DNA from: Candidatus Zhuqueibacterota bacterium
GTDB lineage: Bacteria > Zhuqueibacterota > Zhuqueibacteria > Zhuqueibacterales > Geothermadaptataceae
Reading direction: 5' to 3'
Length of the DNA stretch: 64,000 nucleotides
Assembly: GCA_030950365.1 (NCBI GenBank)
Contig: JAUZRQ010000042.1
Span: 1 to 64,000 of the forward strand
Notes under the pieces: model-generated
What the model saw: the letters and a program-made list of their open reading frames with translations, nothing else
What the model was told of the DNA's origin: nothing
The model's database searches: none
In this document: positions 1-26,738 of the stretch, piece by piece
How the letters are laid out: the number at the start of each line of letters is the position of its first letter
Numbering within the stretch: position 1 is the first letter of the stretch
Translations under genes and position numbers: made by a program

Positions 1-222
1 TATCACCCCCGGAACGCCATCAATTTTTTGCACGGAGACAATGGCTGTGAGAGGCACCACAAAGGTTTCTATAGAACTGCGAACATGGTTTTTGGTTTGT
101 GCCAATCGGATATAATCCCTCTCCACCGATTCCAGCACATACGGCTTCTGATCATTGGCATTCAAGAAAATGCGGTCGCCGATGTGCTGTTTAAGGTAAT
201 GAACCAAGTCTGAACTGTTCAT
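1..222 (-). CDS. Hypothetical protein, N-terminal part (runs off window edge)
   Basis: From an ATG at 222 the frame stays open for 74 codons to the window edge, so only the N-terminus is visible. It begins MNSSDLVHYLKQHIGDR, with no signal peptide or membrane segment, and alternates short charged and beta-type stretches. I do not recognise the family. There is no strong ribosome binding site. It lies about 120 nt downstream of a sigma54-like -24/-12 element, with two palindromes further upstream and the NtrC-type regulator gene next to it on the same strand. This suggests, as inference only, that it is a target of that two-component system. Confidence 0.6.
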   Translation of the reverse strand, partial: MNSSDLVHYLKQHIGDRIFLNANDQKPYVLESVERDYIRLAQTKNHVRSSIETFVVPLTAIVSVQKIDGVPGVI

Positions 223-350: not shown

Positions 351-367
351 GGCCAATTTCATGCCAA
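351..367 (-). promoter_or_regulatory. Putative sigma54 (-24/-12) promoter
   Basis: On the minus strand the sequence is TTGGCATGAAATTGGCC. It has the invariant GG and GC separated by exactly 10 bases, in the pattern TGGCA...TTGGC (consensus TGGCAC-N5-TTGC). It departs from consensus at the sixth base of the -24 element and at the T before GC. A start site would fall near 340, giving a leader of about 118 nt before the ATG at 222. The next gene upstream encodes a sigma54 activator, which fits the context. Confidence 0.45.
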
Positions 368-442: not shown

Positions 443-460
443 TGTCGCATCAAAACGACA
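443..460. promoter_or_regulatory. Putative enhancer site 1 (TGTCG-N8-CGACA palindrome)
   Basis: TGTCGCATCAAAACGACA has perfect 5-bp inverted arms around 8 bases. Its centre is about 110 bp upstream of the start site predicted from the sigma54-like element at 351-367, the usual range for an NtrC-family enhancer. A second site of the same form lies 73 bp further away. Confidence 0.4.
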
Positions 461-515: not shown

Positions 516-533
516 TGTCGCCTCCATGCGACG
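516..533. promoter_or_regulatory. Putative enhancer site 2 (TGTCG-N8-CGACG palindrome)
   Basis: TGTCGCCTCCATGCGACG repeats the arm and spacing pattern of the site at 443-460, with one mismatch at the last base. The two sites are 73 bp apart, very close to seven helical turns, so both would face the same side of the DNA. It lies just beyond the stop codon of the NtrC-type regulator gene. Confidence 0.4.
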
Positions 534-547
534 CTCAGTATGCTCCA

Positions 548-1900
548 TCATTTCTTTTTTAGTACTCGATAAATCGTACTTCGATGAAGGCCGGTTTCGT
601 TGGCGGTTTTGGTAATGTTGTTTTGATTGCGCTGTAGCGCCGCTTTGACGTAATCATATTGAAATCGGTCCATCAAGGCACGTTTTGCCTGATCATAAGG
701 AAGCTCCAACAGGGCCTGGTATTCCTCTAAGAAACTCATGTTCATTTGTGGACTCCGAACCAGGCTCTGACTAATGGTATCGCCCTCGGTTTCAAGAGCT
801 ACATTCATCATTTTATTTTGCAACTCCCGTACGTTTCCAGGCCAGTGATAACTTTGCCAGTACTCCATGACCACGTCTGGAATTTTAGGCACAGGACGTC
901 GAATCTTTCGACAGGCTAGTTCTAAATAATGACGGATTAATTCGGGGATATCTTCTCTTCGTTCTCGTAAAGGTGGGACAATCACATTCAAAACATTCAA
1001 CCGATAGAACAAATCTTCCCTGAACCGGTCATTTTCCACATCCTCTTGCAAATTCCGGTTGGTCGCGGCAATGATCCGCACATCAGCGTGAAGAATTTCG
1101 GTGCCGCCGACTCGTTGAAAACGGCCATATTCAATCACCTCTAAAATCTTGGGTTGCGATTCCGGAGGCAAATCGCCGATCTCATCCAAAAACAGGGTGC
1201 TATTCTCTGCAACTTCGACTTTGCCTTTTTTGCGCTTGAAAGCCCCAGTAAAGGCGCCGCGTTCATGGCCAAAAAATTCACTTTCAAATAGTGATGGCGA
1301 TAGCGTACTGCAGTTTACCGAAAACATGGGTTGCGCAGCGCGGGCACTTTTGCGGTGAATGGCATTGGCCACAAGCTCTTTGCCGGTTCCACTTTCGCCA
1401 ACAATCAACACTGGTACATCGACGAGGGCGCATTGGTCAATGCGCTTGCGCAGCTTTTGCATCGCAGGGCTGTTACCGAGCAATGCGCCATATTTCTTTT
1501 CCTGATGTTCCCGGTAATAGCGTCGGTACGGCAGGCTGGCAATTTGTTGATCAATGATGGCTTTCAATGTGTTCAGATCCGGTGTTTTTTCAATATAATG
1601 TTGCGCCCCTAATTTGATGGATTTTACTGCGCTATTGTGGGTCGGATACTGTGTAATAACTATTACCGGCAGGTCCGGATCGATTTCTTTAATTCGGCGG
1701 AGCAAATCGAGGCCATCCTCTCCATGATTTAGACACATATCCAGGAGCACCACATCCGGGTCTTGCATGCGAATATGGGTGATGGCCTCTTCACCATTGG
1801 TGGTGCATTGAACGTCGTAATCGTTGCTTGTGAAAAATTGAAAATCGTCTAAGAATTGCTCATCGTCATCAATGAGCAGAATAGAGCGTTTGTAAGCCAT
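548..1900 (-). CDS. Sigma54-dependent response regulator, NtrC family
   Basis: The 450-aa protein has the standard three-domain layout. The receiver (about 1-120) has acidic residues at 11-13, phospho-acceptor D54, T83 and K105. The AAA+ domain (about 140-370) has Walker A GESGTGKE at 168-175, the sigma54-contacting GAFTGA loop and Walker B LFLDEIGDLP. A Fis-type helix-turn-helix at the C-terminus ends in RSTIYRVLKKK. It would activate sigma54 promoters once phosphorylated by the sensor kinase encoded 17 bp upstream on the same strand, almost certainly its partner. The likely target is the sigma54-like promoter just downstream. Length and motifs are normal for the family, but the specific regulon is not known. 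Confidence 0.95.
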   Translation of the reverse strand: MAYKRSILLIDDDEQFLDDFQFFTSNDYDVQCTTNGEEAITHIRMQDPDVVLLDMCLNHGEDGLDLLRRIKEIDPDLPVIVITQYPTHNSAVKSIKLGAQHYIEKTPDLNTLKAIIDQQIASLPYRRYYREHQEKKYGALLGNSPAMQKLRKRIDQCALVDVPVLIVGESGTGKELVANAIHRKSARAAQPMFSVNCSTLSPSLFESEFFGHERGAFTGAFKRKKGKVEVAENSTLFLDEIGDLPPESQPKILEVIEYGRFQRVGGTEILHADVRIIAATNRNLQEDVENDRFREDLFYRLNVLNVIVPPLRERREDIPELIRHYLELACRKIRRPVPKIPDVVMEYWQSYHWPGNVRELQNKMMNVALETEGDTISQSLVRSPQMNMSFLEEYQALLELPYDQAKRALMDRFQYDYVKAALQRNQNNITKTANETGLHRSTIYRVLKKK

Positions 1901-1917
1901 GACAACCCCTTTCGATT

Positions 1918-4900
1918 TTAAAATCCCTCGTATTTCCTTTTGGAAGTGGAATAGATCGGCGTGGCTTTTTGCAAGTGCATTTGAATCGTGGTTCCTCTAT
2001 TTATCTGACTCGTTTTTATCAAAATTTTCCCATCAAATTTTTCTAAAATAAAGCGCGCATGATATAATCCAAATCCGCCGCTTTCACGATCACTAAAATT
2101 GCGTTCAAAAATCGTTTCCCATTTCTTTTTAGGAATCCCACGTCCCTGATCTACCACTTCCAGGATGATTTCCCCATTGCTTTGAATATAAATATCCACA
2201 CGTTTTTTCGCTTTCCCGCGCATGGCGTGACGGGCATTGATAATGAGTTCGTTCAATATACTGCGAAATTCGGTTATGGGAATGCGTGCATACAAATTTT
2301 GTTCGTCGCTATGCAGCACGACTTCGGTATCCGAGTCCACAAAAGCCCGGATCACCACCTGGGTTTCTTTAATGATATCACAAATTTCCTGGCTAAGGAC
2401 CAGGTCGCGGAGCTTTCGAATGCCACCACGTAAAGCCTGCAGCTTTTGAGTGATGTTGTTTAAAGCCGAATCGCGGATCGGTTTGCTGGATTGGAGACGT
2501 CGATGAATTTGGCGCAATCCACGCTGGAAGCTCATCGTGATTCTTAGTAACCGGATTGCCTGGTTTCGAGCAATTTTCAAAGTCATCAAATATTCAATAA
2601 TCAGTAAGATATCGGGGATAACCTGCTCACGGATCGAGTCCACTTTTTGCAATAAACGGTATCGAAACTCCCACGGCATTTCGCCTTTGGGGAAATTGCG
2701 GAGCTGAAATTCGAGGCTCGATAGCAGGTTGGCTGCTGTTTGACTATGGCCAAACGCCGCCAGTTTCATACTGAGTACTTCCATGCTTGCGGCAGGAGAA
2801 TAGTTCAACCGCCATAGTTTATAAACCTGCATGACTGCTGCCCCAGCAAACAATGCCGCTCCTATCGGGGCCACGAAAAATAGCACATCATCACGAATGA
2901 CCAAGCCACTTTTGATGCTGATAAACCCAAGCAGCACTCCTAAAATGAATTGGCCCGTCGCATCGGCCAGCCAGCAATTCTGTCTAATCCAATAGAGGAT
3001 TAGCATTATGACCAACAGCATAAGTAGTAATATTTGCAAGACAGTTAAATGCGAACGGTAGCCAAAAATTTGATTTCGAACGAATTGTTGCAGGCGTGCA
3101 TGGAATTTTGGGAAACCTGAAAGCTCTTCAATCCGATAATAGCGGCCGGGCGAAAGCGAGCGCAGTTCCCGAACGGCACCGCCAGGAAATTTGACAACAA
3201 CATCGTATTTTTTCTTTGCATCCACGCCAAAATGCAAGAGCTTTTGCGCATGCGATGCATATCCGGACGTGCTTTCAATCATCTGAGTGGCCAAAATGGC
3301 CGTCCGATCTCCGGCTTTACCAGCCGGATATAACTCGGCTACGGCACCAATGGCGCTCCGGTTGCTCTTAACCCCGGTCACTTCAAGCACAAGATAATCC
3401 GACTTATTGATGTAATTGTGCAATAAGTACGATTCATGATCAAAACTCAGAATCAGGAGATCAATATCACCATCACGCAGCATATCCATTTTTACGGTGC
3501 CTGTGGTGAATCCCCCATAGAGGGTCTGTGTCACTCGTCGTGGAAGCCATCCATTGTGTCGGAGTCGGTCGAATTCTTCATTTGGAATAAATTGGGAGCC
3601 ATCGTTTTCATAAAAGCGATCCAGGCCCATATTGGCGATAAACACATCGAGATCGCCATCAAGATCGTAATCAAAAAACGTGGCGCCACGGCTATCCGCA
3701 TGTTCATGCAAACCAACTTCCCGGGTTACATCCCGAAAATGACCAGAACCATCGTTTTGCAACAATTGGTTTGGATAATACAACTTACTAATAAATACAT
3801 CAAAATCCCCATCATTGTCATAGTCTACAAACGTCAGAGAAGAACACTTTTCTGGCCGATCGGACCGCAAGGCTGGGTTCTCAGCGCGGATATCATCAAA
3901 CGTACCGTCGCCACGGTTGCGATATAGATATGTTCCTTCTCCGAACGTGGTCACGGCAAGATCGATCCAGCCATCGCCGTCGATATCGGCAAAGGCGCCT
4001 GCCTTGGAGCCCAGGGGGATATCCAGTCCGCGCTGAGCGGCTTCATCGGCAAACCGACCGACGCCATTATTGATCATTAGCAAGGGCTGGCCATATTCGT
4101 TGGGAATCAAAATATCCAGATCGCCGTCATTGTCCACATCGGCTGTCGCCGCAATCCCCAAACGTTGATGTGGATTTTCTTTGAAACCGGCCCAGGATGA
4201 AATGTCTTTGAATTTGCCTTGGCCCAAATTCAAAAAGAAAACAACCTTACCATAAAATCCAGTAACGAAAACGTCTTCTCGGCCATCGTTGTTAAAATCC
4301 GCGGTGAGTACAGAAAAGTCATAATTGGGTCTCCCACTCATGGTTTTCGTTGGTTCCTGCAAACCAAATGCATCCACGGAAACCGACTCCAAATACCACA
4401 AGATGAAATCGCGATGGATCATTAGCAAATCATTTTCAAGCACACCGTCAATGATATAAATCCCCTGCTTTTCCCTGCTAATCGTAAGGAATGCAGCTCC
4501 TAAGGCATATCCCAGGTCAAAATAGGATTGAATTGCCAGCCGCATCCTGGTCACTAAGTTGACTTCCGGCCGACCTCGAATTGGAATGACGCCGTTTATG
4601 CCACCATAGATCCATAGCATGCCGTCTTCACTTGCTGCAATCCGATTGGGAGCAATACCACTAAAGTAACGGATCGTTTGTTTCAAGGTGTCCACAACCA
4701 AATAAACCGCATTATCGGTCAATAAATACAGAGAATCGGGCGGGATCAATGCGAAGTCTCGAATCCCATCGATCGGGATTTGAATGACATCACCCTCTCG
4801 ATACAGATAAAGTTTATGAGTGACCTCCGTCAAAAAATAGAAAAAGTCAGGACTTGATGGCCAGAGGTCAAAGACCGGGAATGCCTCTAATTCTGCGTAG

Positions 4901-5499
4901 TATCGCCACTGACCGTTTTTTTGCAACGCAAAAACTTGATTAAAAATCTGGCAATCCGTCGTAATCATGGGCCGGCCGAACGAATCAAGCACGATTGTGC
5001 GAATATGGCAGCGAGTCGGTGAACGCATTGGGAGCCATTGTCCGTTTTCATATTTCAGCAGCTCTCCCCAGCGGCCAACGGCCCAGCCGTGGTTTTCATC
5101 AGCGAAGGCCATCCCAAGGAGCTGATCCACATGCGGTATCTCGACCTGTTGCCACTTACCTCTATGATACAGCAAAACATCCTCCCGGTAATGCGAAGGC
5201 AACTGGTAGGTTACCCAGATCATTTCCGGTTGGACAAAAAATACATTGGTCAATTCAACATCGTAGGGCAGGTTGATTTTTTGCCAGATGCCGTTTTCAT
5301 ATTTAAAGATGGAATTTGTATTAGTGAATGTATAACCAAGATCTTGACTGAAAAACCGGGCTTTTTTTACGACATGTGATGTTAGAAACTCATCAGGAGT
5401 TTCATTCAATGCTCGAGAGAACGAGATGGCATGGAGCGCTATGCTCCAGAGATTTATCAAGATAAACAGAAGTTTTAACCAACACCTCTTCATGAGCAT
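1918..5499 (-). CDS. Membrane sensor histidine kinase with FG-GAP/ASPIC-UnbV sensor region
   Basis: A protein of about 1193 aa. An N-terminal hydrophobic segment is followed by a YCF48/BNR-like propeller region (about 40-330). FG-GAP/VCBS repeats (about 390-700) carry Ca-binding loops such as DFNNDGRED, DVDNDGDLD, DIDGDGWID and DYDLDGDLD. An ASPIC/UnbV-like module (about 720-820) precedes several membrane helices (about 830-910) and a helical region. The HATPase domain has N-box ELIINARHAM, G1 VDQGRGIP and G2 GGFGLYHAR. It probably senses an extracytoplasmic ligand and phosphorylates the regulator encoded directly downstream. No canonical H-box is visible; the only nearby histidine is in RQIHRRLQ. 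The frame extends to a TTG at 5523; ATGs at 5499 and 5493 are more likely starts. Confidence 0.85.
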   Translation of the reverse strand: MLMKRCWLKLLFILINLWSIALHAISFSRALNETPDEFLTSHVVKKARFFSQDLGYTFTNTNSIFKYENGIWQKINLPYDVELTNVFFVQPEMIWVTYQLPSHYREDVLLYHRGKWQQVEIPHVDQLLGMAFADENHGWAVGRWGELLKYENGQWLPMRSPTRCHIRTIVLDSFGRPMITTDCQIFNQVFALQKNGQWRYYAELEAFPVFDLWPSSPDFFYFLTEVTHKLYLYREGDVIQIPIDGIRDFALIPPDSLYLLTDNAVYLVVDTLKQTIRYFSGIAPNRIAASEDGMLWIYGGINGVIPIRGRPEVNLVTRMRLAIQSYFDLGYALGAAFLTISREKQGIYIIDGVLENDLLMIHRDFILWYLESVSVDAFGLQEPTKTMSGRPNYDFSVLTADFNNDGREDVFVTGFYGKVVFFLNLGQGKFKDISSWAGFKENPHQRLGIAATADVDNDGDLDILIPNEYGQPLLMINNGVGRFADEAAQRGLDIPLGSKAGAFADIDGDGWIDLAVTTFGEGTYLYRNRGDGTFDDIRAENPALRSDRPEKCSSLTFVDYDNDGDFDVFISKLYYPNQLLQNDGSGHFRDVTREVGLHEHADSRGATFFDYDLDGDLDVFIANMGLDRFYENDGSQFIPNEEFDRLRHNGWLPRRVTQTLYGGFTTGTVKMDMLRDGDIDLLILSFDHESYLLHNYINKSDYLVLEVTGVKSNRSAIGAVAELYPAGKAGDRTAILATQMIESTSGYASHAQKLLHFGVDAKKKYDVVVKFPGGAVRELRSLSPGRYYRIEELSGFPKFHARLQQFVRNQIFGYRSHLTVLQILLLMLLVIMLILYWIRQNCWLADATGQFILGVLLGFISIKSGLVIRDDVLFFVAPIGAALFAGAAVMQVYKLWRLNYSPAASMEVLSMKLAAFGHSQTAANLLSSLEFQLRNFPKGEMPWEFRYRLLQKVDSIREQVIPDILLIIEYLMTLKIARNQAIRLLRITMSFQRGLRQIHRRLQSSKPIRDSALNNITQKLQALRGGIRKLRDLVLSQEICDIIKETQVVIRAFVDSDTEVVLHSDEQNLYARIPITEFRSILNELIINARHAMRGKAKKRVDIYIQSNGEIILEVVDQGRGIPKKKWETIFERNFSDRESGGFGLYHARFILEKFDGKILIKTSQINRGTTIQMHLQKATPIYSTSKRKYEGF

Positions 5500-5692
5500 C
5501 CACTTTTTTAATTTTTTTCTCAACTTTTTAACAAAATTCGAGTTTTATATATATTGAAAGCTGGCTATTTTCATATCATTTTTCTTACAGGAAAGCCATT
5601 TTCAACCAACACTGTGCCTACCGTGGATATATCTTCACCGATCTGCAGCAAATTATGGTGGCAATATTCTAAACCACATTGGGGGTGAAATT

Positions 5693-25149: not shown

Positions 25150-26496
25150 TCAATGAAGCAGTATTATTTTGCGCGTATAAGTTGAACGTCCAACCTGCAG
25201 ACGTAAAAAATATAATTGCGACGGCAGGGGGGATCCATCCGCTCTCCAGGTGGTTTGATATTCGCCGGGAGTTTTTGCTTCATCCACAAGCCGCTGCACC
25301 ACCTGCCCGCGCATATTCACAATATCAAGAGTGACTCTGCCGGCCTTTTCCACCCAGAACCGAATCCGGGTTTCTGGATGAAACGGGTTCGGATAATTGC
25401 TAACCATGGCAAATTCCACCGGCGGCCGCCCCGGTTCCATGCCAACCGAGGTCGGAATCGGAGTGACTCGCGTTTTCAAATTCATGGCCCGGGCGATTTC
25501 CCGCCAGTCGTACGCATGCACGGCGCGGTCGGAATGCAGCGCATAAAAGGAGCCCTCGGGGAAATTGGGCAAAGCCATCTGCGTCAGCGCAATGCCATCC
25601 GTGCCCGATGTTTTGCCGGAAAAATTGCCCATGTAGTCCATGGTTTTGCGGTCGAAAACCTCGTATTCCGTCGGGCTGGCTTCCTGATCCGCCACGATGT
25701 AATAGCCTTCGCCATTGCCAAGGTCGTACAGCACAATGCCCTCGGGATCGTTGGTGAAAATGCCCGCACCGAAACGGCTTTGATACTCGCCTTTCAAATT
25801 GTAAACGCGGATGTCATACGGGGCGCTTTCGGCACAGATCAGCGCACGGTCATGTTCCTGGTCGATCACCAGCGATTCGAGAGTGGCATCGACCGGGAAA
25901 TCAAACAAAAGCCGGCCTTCGATGCCGTTGCCGCCTGGCCGCACCTCAAAGACTTTCACCCGGTCCGGCGAACTACCAGTGCTGGTGATCCAGGCTTGCA
26001 GATGACCATTCACCCGTGCCAGGGCGATGCCGTATGGTTTATCGAGATGTTTATTGCCAAACGCGCCTAAAAATTGCCGTTCGGGCAATGAAAACGCGCT
26101 GACTCGGTTGTTATCACGCTCCACCACAAATACAACATCGGTCAGGCCGGAGACCGTATTGACGTTATAAGCCACGGCAATGCCATTCGGTCGTTTGAGC
26201 TGCCCGGAAGACGCGCCAGGTTCGCCTAAACGTCCGAGAAATTGATTTCTTATCGGATCAAAAAGATGCACCACATTCCGGGTTTTGTCTGTGATCATCA
26301 ATAAGCTCTGCGCCGGATCGTGCGCCACCCAGATAGCCACCGAATCGAGGGTGCCGCGCCCCTCAGGTGGTTTGGGTGTTTCATAGGCATGCTGTACCAC
26401 AACCATGGCCGACAGGGCCATGAAACTCACACCCATCAACAGGCTGCTATTGCCGAGGGAAAGCCATTTTACCCGTTTCCAGAACGTCGAATGCAT
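25150..26496 (-). CDS. Secreted NHL/phytase-like beta-propeller protein with T9SS-type C-terminal domain
   Basis: A 448-aa protein. An N-terminal hydrophobic segment (about 15-35) acts as signal or anchor. The body (about 50-350) shows NHL-like blades such as LKRPNGIAVAYN, LDKPYGIALARV and NDPEGIVLYD, resembling phytase-type or NHL propellers. The last 85 residues (SNYPNPFHPETRIRFWV to YTRKIILLH) form a FlgD-like/T9SS type A sorting module. The propeller may bind a ligand or hydrolyse phosphate esters; nothing proves activity. GGAGC before the ATG supports the start. It appears to be a single gene. Confidence 0.8.
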   Translation of the reverse strand: MHSTFWKRVKWLSLGNSSLLMGVSFMALSAMVVVQHAYETPKPPEGRGTLDSVAIWVAHDPAQSLLMITDKTRNVVHLFDPIRNQFLGRLGEPGASSGQLKRPNGIAVAYNVNTVSGLTDVVFVVERDNNRVSAFSLPERQFLGAFGNKHLDKPYGIALARVNGHLQAWITSTGSSPDRVKVFEVRPGGNGIEGRLLFDFPVDATLESLVIDQEHDRALICAESAPYDIRVYNLKGEYQSRFGAGIFTNDPEGIVLYDLGNGEGYYIVADQEASPTEYEVFDRKTMDYMGNFSGKTSGTDGIALTQMALPNFPEGSFYALHSDRAVHAYDWREIARAMNLKTRVTPIPTSVGMEPGRPPVEFAMVSNYPNPFHPETRIRFWVEKAGRVTLDIVNMRGQVVQRLVDEAKTPGEYQTTWRADGSPLPSQLYFLRLQVGRSTYTRKIILLH

Positions 26497-26738
26497 GGTT
26501 GCTCCGTTTTTTATTTATGCATGATGTTTTGTTCGAGCATTGAATCCATGTTCAATCAGATAGCAAATGCCTTCCAAAGCGAATAACGTTATTATGCAAC
26601 TAACGTGCCACACGATCCGGACTTCCTGGCTATCCCGTTCGTACTTGAATTTAGCGCAGCAGGCTTGATTTGTTCGAGCCCAACCTGTTTTCGCCGGGAC
26701 CACTATCTCATTTTGAGGCGATGATTACGGATTTGAAA

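Follow-up and report, generated by a model that had tools for sequence, protein, structure and literature searches.

A CRTAC1-like FG-GAP/ASPIC sensor kinase paired with an NtrC-type regulator and a predicted operator array in candidate division KSB1

ASPIC/FG-GAP proteins are common in the uncultured bacteria considered here and are present in animals, as in the cartilage protein CRTAC1; to our knowledge, what they recognize is mostly unknown. The locus described here, in which such a region is joined to a histidine kinase, raises the question of what the kinase might sense and which genes it might control. The window, a stretch of 64,000 nucleotides, is the opening of contig C74 in a 4.98-Mb assembly (G000) of candidate division KSB1; the named genomes with which it was compared are metagenome assemblies. 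Judged from sequence, the locus belongs to a real and coherent two-component family that recurs across genomes and for which an operator and an output can be predicted.

The features of the locus are collected in Table 1. The kinase frame contains an in-frame ATG at position 5499 (codon 9), which would yield a protein of 1,193 aa. An initial, sequence-only reading had taken the gene to be a fusion of FG-GAP and ASPIC-UnbV regions to a HATPase, and all three lie in one unbroken frame with scores above the curated Pfam cutoffs: FG-GAP_3 at 130 bits in four stretches, FG-GAP at 37.5 bits, UnbV_ASPIC at 30.1 bits (cutoff, 23.4), and HATPase_c at 52.6 bits. Only YCF48, the other domain proposed for the search, fell short, at 17.9 bits against a cutoff of 27, so an N-terminal propeller is suggested rather than established; strands are predicted in this region at low confidence in the full-length AF2 model, and relative L062 matches PSII_BNR at 48.8 bits. 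Reg_prop and Y_Y_Y had no Pfam match in the kinase. The two halves were said to be joined through a membrane segment; a membrane region is indeed present, but hydropathy and the AF2 helices make three helices more likely. If the signal peptide is cleaved, the kinase half would be cytoplasmic only with an odd number of them.

Table 1. Features at the start of the window (positions are those of the window; residues are those of the kinase)
Feature	Position	Strand	Basis or remark
Small gene, at least 74 aa, presumed direct target	1..222	-	Cut by contig start
Sigma54-like -24/-12 promoter TGGCATGAAATTGGCC	351..366	-	Predicted from sequence
Putative regulator operator, promoter-proximal dyad TGTCGTTTTGATGCGACA	443..460	read on minus	Conserved dyad
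Putative regulator operator, promoter-distal dyad CGTCGCATGGAGGCGACA	516..533	read on minus	Conserved dyad
NtrC-type response regulator	548..1900	-	Receiver (D54), AAA+ with GAFTGA, Fis-type HTH
Sensor histidine kinase	1918..5523	-	1,201 codons from TTG, frame unbroken
HATPase_c catalytic domain with N, G1, and G2 boxes	1966..2268	-	Residues 1086-1186; Pfam
His926 in AAFGHSQ, presumed phosphoacceptor	2746..2748	-	Sole invariant His of core
Membrane region, about three helices	2824..3063	-	Residues 821-900; hydropathy, AF2 helices
ASPIC/UnbV domain	3136..3354	-	Residues 724-796; Pfam
FG-GAP (integrin-type) propeller	3424..4338	-	Pfam, DxDxDGxxD loops, fold match
N-terminal region, possibly YCF48-like propeller (weak)	4354..5406	-	Residues about 40-390
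Signal peptide/N-terminal hydrophobic segment	5416..5484	-	Residues 14-36; hydropathy, predicted helix

The ectodomain (residues 392-815) was modeled with AF2 from five sequences (pLDDT, 80.7; pTM, 0.84). The top Foldseek match of the model is CRTAC1 (9etn; E = 5.8e-25; TM score by query, 0.76), which is also the best sequence match of the FG-GAP/ASPIC region (E = 1e-10), and the likeness to CRTAC1 noted at first sight thus extends to the nearest solved fold. The GlcNAc-binding propeller lectins 4tqj and 4up4 are among the next matches. The full-length model is weak (mean pLDDT, 58.6), with an N-terminal half too weak to use; its fold matches are CRTAC1, then the HTCS ectodomain 4a2m, and then HK853-type kinases. 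Calcium-loop motifs of the DxDxDGxxD type lie at residues 409, 462, 513, 567, and 618, and a sixth, at 680, is degenerate. Together with the lectin folds and the BT4663 ectodomain match of the weak model, these loops make a glycan or another surface ligand plausible. The sequence-only reading had suggested a surface glycan, calcium, or cell contact as the stimulus, and our best guess would be a glycan or matrix component bound by calcium-stabilized blades.

Alternatively, the signal could be calcium itself instead of a glycan or protein. The five loops are kept in relatives, and calcium blades of this kind are a recognized propeller motif (PMC3123361); however, the calcium sites that integrin-type propellers carry outside the cell may have a structural role and be permanently occupied (PMC3192720), the number of canonical loops varies from four to seven per member, and the Zixibacteria-type members with the same kinase core have weaker FG-GAP matches. 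Calcium as the signal is unlikely, although it keeps a real share of the probability.

The same FG-GAP/ASPIC ectodomain also sits on canonical HisKA kinases of ∼1,050 aa, with or without GAF, and on a 1,286-aa kinase with a clear YCF48 match and HisKA. Its joining to at least two unlike kinase cores argues for a working sensor module. This separate, second fusion was seen at L054 (with GAF), L055, L057, L058, L061, and L062 (with YCF48), several of them beside NtrC-type regulators. The sole other ASPIC protein found in G000 is a 2,357-codon frame with three ASPIC domains (C2:21778-24747).

The kinase core in the window is unusual: by sequence it appears HisKA negative and escapes HisKA models (no match to PF00512 in the kinase at E ≤ 1). 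Across 18 core sequences, the only invariant histidine is His926, within an F-x-H-[GS] motif; N943, the N-box, and the G boxes are invariant as well. About 170 residues separate His926 from the N-box, a stretch longer than that in canonical kinases. A core profile (residues 890-1201) searched against 82 genomes of the phylum returned 20 near-full matches at E ≤ 5.2e-95, all of them FG-GAP/ASPIC kinases, followed by a gap in score to 8e-55 (L123) and then 5e-49 and weaker; the matches weaker than L123 are fragments of split genes or generic ATPase domains. With a twenty-first kinase that is split over two contigs in G011, the kinase is present in 21/82 genomes. The same core is found in L123 and in 9 of 132 genomes of the Zixibacteria phylum; the complete sensors of these carriers are FG-GAP-like or related propellers of ∼500 residues without ASPIC. 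A contig scan yielded 7 loci and, because it used the single motif GGFGLYHA, under-samples the wider taxonomic range of the core.

The regulator (Pfam domains Response_reg, Sigma54_activat, and HTH_8) starts with an ATG at 1900, 17 nt from the kinase stop at 1918. An NtrC-type regulator is present at 16 of the 20 near-complete kinase loci, directly behind the kinase at 14 and after ∼1 to 1.7 kb at two, and four loci have no adjacent regulator. Asp54 is invariant in the 16 regulators. Distances among kinase cores and among regulators are strongly correlated (Mantel r = 0.943; 16 pairs; 0/2,000 permutations), a value to which shared vertical descent contributes. Both the pairing with an NtrC regulator and the recurrence of the fusion beside sigma54 activators, for which the sequence-only reading had proposed a genome survey, are borne out by these counts. 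No other neighbor of the kinase loci is widely shared; small downstream genes appeared only as pairs.

These observations also bear on the possibility that the ectodomain has a structural role as adhesin or scaffold, with a kinase half that is degenerate or acts only as a phosphatase and a regulator driven otherwise. Such a reading would fit the absent HisKA match, the long stretch between His926 and the N-box (a comparison that draws partly on general knowledge), and the regulators encoded apart from the kinase, but it is improbable given that the H, N, G1, and G2 residues are invariant in 18 distant sequences, that kinase and regulator codiverge, and that the same ectodomain is found on canonical HisKA kinases beside NtrC regulators.

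What, then, might a signaling kinase and its regulator control? The regulator gene is followed by a conserved dyad of 18 bp, TGTYGC-N6-GCRACA, most often in two copies 67 to 73 nt apart, with a sigma54-like promoter 72 to 97 nt farther on and then a small gene. Between two congeneric genomes, the sequence that follows the regulator gene has diverged save for two short blocks, the dyad and the -24-like element, and an inverted-repeat search at other loci recovered the same dyad. With at most one mismatch, there are 17 sites in the 5.3 kb behind regulators versus 4 in 187 kb elsewhere; a half-swapped control gave 0 and 1, respectively. Because the pattern was derived from the regions first tested, a circularity of the 17-versus-4 comparison that is partly mended by genome-wide and orphan-regulator tests, three further tests matter. 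Exact tandem pairs occur in only 4 of the 82 genomes (reversed control, 0): in G079 and G081 they follow this regulator, in G075 they follow an ortholog of it, and G000 has one pair at another place. The kinases of G074, G076, and G077 lack an adjacent regulator, and orthologs of the G075 regulator (75 to 94% identical) sit elsewhere in these genomes; as predicted for these held-out cases, the regulators parted from their kinase keep the dyad array, with tandem dyads 69 nt apart and promoters of the TGGCAT-N5-TTTGT type 92 to 93 nt on. Finally, no dyad was found behind any of 13 other NtrC regulators.

The array is not uniform across the family. The spacing between the near dyad and the T of the -24 element is 72 to 76 nt in the window, C72, C88, L035, and L048, 83 to 88 nt at L039, L042, and L050, and 92 to 97 nt at the remaining loci, classes that look like steps of one helical turn. 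In four genomes of order f2, the region behind the regulator keeps mainly the two dyads and the promoter element. Dyads of the TGTYGC-N6-GCRACA kind were found neither at the regulators of four relatives (L044, L046, L052, and L070) nor at the canonical-HisKA FG-GAP/ASPIC kinase loci. The residue before the recognition-helix Arg is Q, S, or P in the dyad-less regulators and mostly N or H in those with dyads.

As inverted repeats just 3' of a gene, the dyads might be taken for transcription terminators or RNA hairpins. This is very improbable: the letters of the dyad, not its pairing alone, are conserved across families, the two copies keep a near-fixed spacing and a regular distance to the -24/-12 element, arrays occur at two places in G000 without this regulator, and the 13 other NtrC regulators have none. 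The reading as regulator operators is the one followed here.

The two further arrays in G000, C72:2842-3022 (L166) and C88:57274-57465 (L167:4775-4966), combine tandem dyads with a sigma54-like promoter in the same geometry as in the window. Their promoters point antisense into the truncated 3' ends of secreted fn3/CARDB-type genes, apparent paralogs; possible explanations are an antisense RNA, gene loss, rearrangement, or an artifact of assembly. A single dyad, TGTCGCATGAATGCGACC (C108:38534 of G000; L168:4535), and a good -24/-12 site, TGGCATAACATTTGCG (L168:4613, minus strand), lie ahead of a TonB-receptor-like gene. The single dyads at C2, C49, L039:11097, and L051:5038 were rejected as arrays, having no partner dyad or fitting promoter.

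The predicted promoter of the window has the -12 element TTGGC, not TTGC, and TTTGT takes this place in one order. Scored with an approximate -24/-12 matrix, the best sites between regulator and next gene exceed those of random segments at 12 KSB1 loci (p = 1.7e-6) and, with the same matrix, in a second set of eight loci made up of Zixibacteria loci and one KSB1 locus (p = 3.8e-8); for other NtrC regulators, this matrix gave p = 0.017. At the extremes, the site of L048, TGGCATTTTGTTTGCA, is perfect and that of L045 poor. G000 carries one copy of rpoN and 35 exact -24/-12 sites, versus 7 for the reversed control, and a plain -24/-12 scan of the whole window gave a total not above chance. An operator search beside the exact sigma54 sites of G000 found no pairs because the array promoters deviate from consensus. 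A perfect sigma54 site, TGGCACGTTAGTTGCA, was also noted at window positions 26595-26610 (minus strand); 98 nt on lies the gene for a secreted, propeller-like protein of 448 aa with a sorting-type C terminus (25150-26496).

The small gene differs between lineages. In the genus of the window, it encodes a short protein (relative at L035:7276-7515), and in order f2, a small membrane protein occupies its position. In the second group (Zixibacteria and one KSB1 locus), it is usually a stand-alone receiver of 124 to 173 aa with the phosphorylation residues present. Some KSB1 loci encode a receiver-like protein without the Asp, which matches the receivers of the regulators in a profile comparison (probability, 94.6) and stays below threshold in single-sequence Pfam searches. 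That the stand-alone receivers feed back on the kinase is a guess. Its wider form, a three-gene module conserved in at least two phyla in which propeller kinase and NtrC regulator induce, through their own sigma54 promoter, a stand-alone receiver with a feedback role on the kinase, for instance that of a phosphate sink, with the KSB1 receiver having lost its phosphorylation site or been replaced, is possible, although the balance is somewhat against it. In G180 of the Zixibacteria phylum (L203, 5632-9000), what follows the regulator and the sigma54 site behind it is, in place of a receiver, the gene for a secreted PQQ/FG-GAP propeller protein of 1,123 aa that weakly matches dockerin.

From domain order, pairing, codivergence, dyad arrays, array geometry, and recurrence, all read from the sequences, we infer a course of ligand binding, phosphotransfer, DNA binding, and promoter activity, and it is likely that the locus encodes a two-component system running from the CRTAC1-like ectodomain kinase through the NtrC regulator, two dyads, and a sigma54 promoter to the small gene. 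An outside ligand would bind the FG-GAP/ASPIC ectodomain beyond the inner membrane and change it; the signal would cross about three membrane helices to the HisKA-negative core, where His926 presumably becomes autophosphorylated and hands the phosphoryl group on to Asp54 of the neighboring regulator. The regulator would then bind the two dyads, ∼70 nt apart and 70 to 100 nt upstream of the sigma54 promoter, and activate the small gene that follows the regulator gene, together with a few other promoters. There is virtually no chance that a frameshift or misassembly made the fusion out of two unrelated genes, one for a secreted ASPIC protein and one for a kinase, as nothing was found in its favor, relatives of 1,189 to 1,234 aa align end to end at 26 to 62% identity, and the fusion occurs in 20 other genomes of the phylum, often at ∼1,200 aa.

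No described system of such a form had come to mind at the first reading, and a literature search among open-license papers found no description of a kinase with an ASPIC/UnbV or FG-GAP sensor. A review of kinase sensors includes BT4663 (Y_Y_Y) and no FG-GAP or ASPIC sensor (PMC8534201), and a Poribacteria paper mentions ASPIC proteins and kinases separately. Three points go beyond that first reading: a conserved output of predicted operator, promoter, and small gene; a kinase core of unusual makeup; and the occurrence of this core in a second phylum. The fusion gives the FG-GAP/ASPIC domain a measurable readout, and the predicted dyad/sigma54 promoter array could serve directly as a reporter in the search for propeller ligands. 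The locus also adds a kinase core missed by HisKA models and, for phyla in which genetics has barely begun, a two-component system together with predictions of its operator and output.

Among known systems, the Bacteroides hybrid two-component systems (HTCS), such as BT4663 (Reg_prop and Y_Y_Y), likewise place a very large propeller ectodomain and a membrane-adjacent domain before the kinase, with two predicted 7-bladed propellers plus YYY (PMC3243724), and the BT4663 ectodomain (4a2m) is the second-best fold match of the weak full-length model. In contrast to HTCS, the ectodomain here is FG-GAP/ASPIC rather than Reg_prop/Y_Y_Y, kinase and receiver/DNA-binding parts are separate genes instead of one polypeptide, the regulator is of the NtrC/sigma54 type, and the kinase core is not HisKA. 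CRTAC1 and other secreted ASPIC-UnbV proteins share the order of FG-GAP propeller and then ASPIC; CRTAC1, however, has no kinase, whereas here the unit is a membrane receptor ectodomain. The other FG-GAP/ASPIC kinases have the same ectodomain and often an NtrC-type neighbor but differ in their canonical HisKA core and the absence of dyads of this type. Finally, LuxO, of the NtrC family, resembles the regulator in its REC-AAA(GAFTGA)-Fis HTH architecture, dyads upstream of a -24/-12 promoter, and small output gene, and its site TTGCAWWWTGCAA (PMC10162802) resembles the TTGCAT-N2-ATGCAA core of several sites here; the present system differs from LuxO in its sensor, its 18-bp site, and its output, a small receiver-like, membrane, or short protein (an RNA output being possible).
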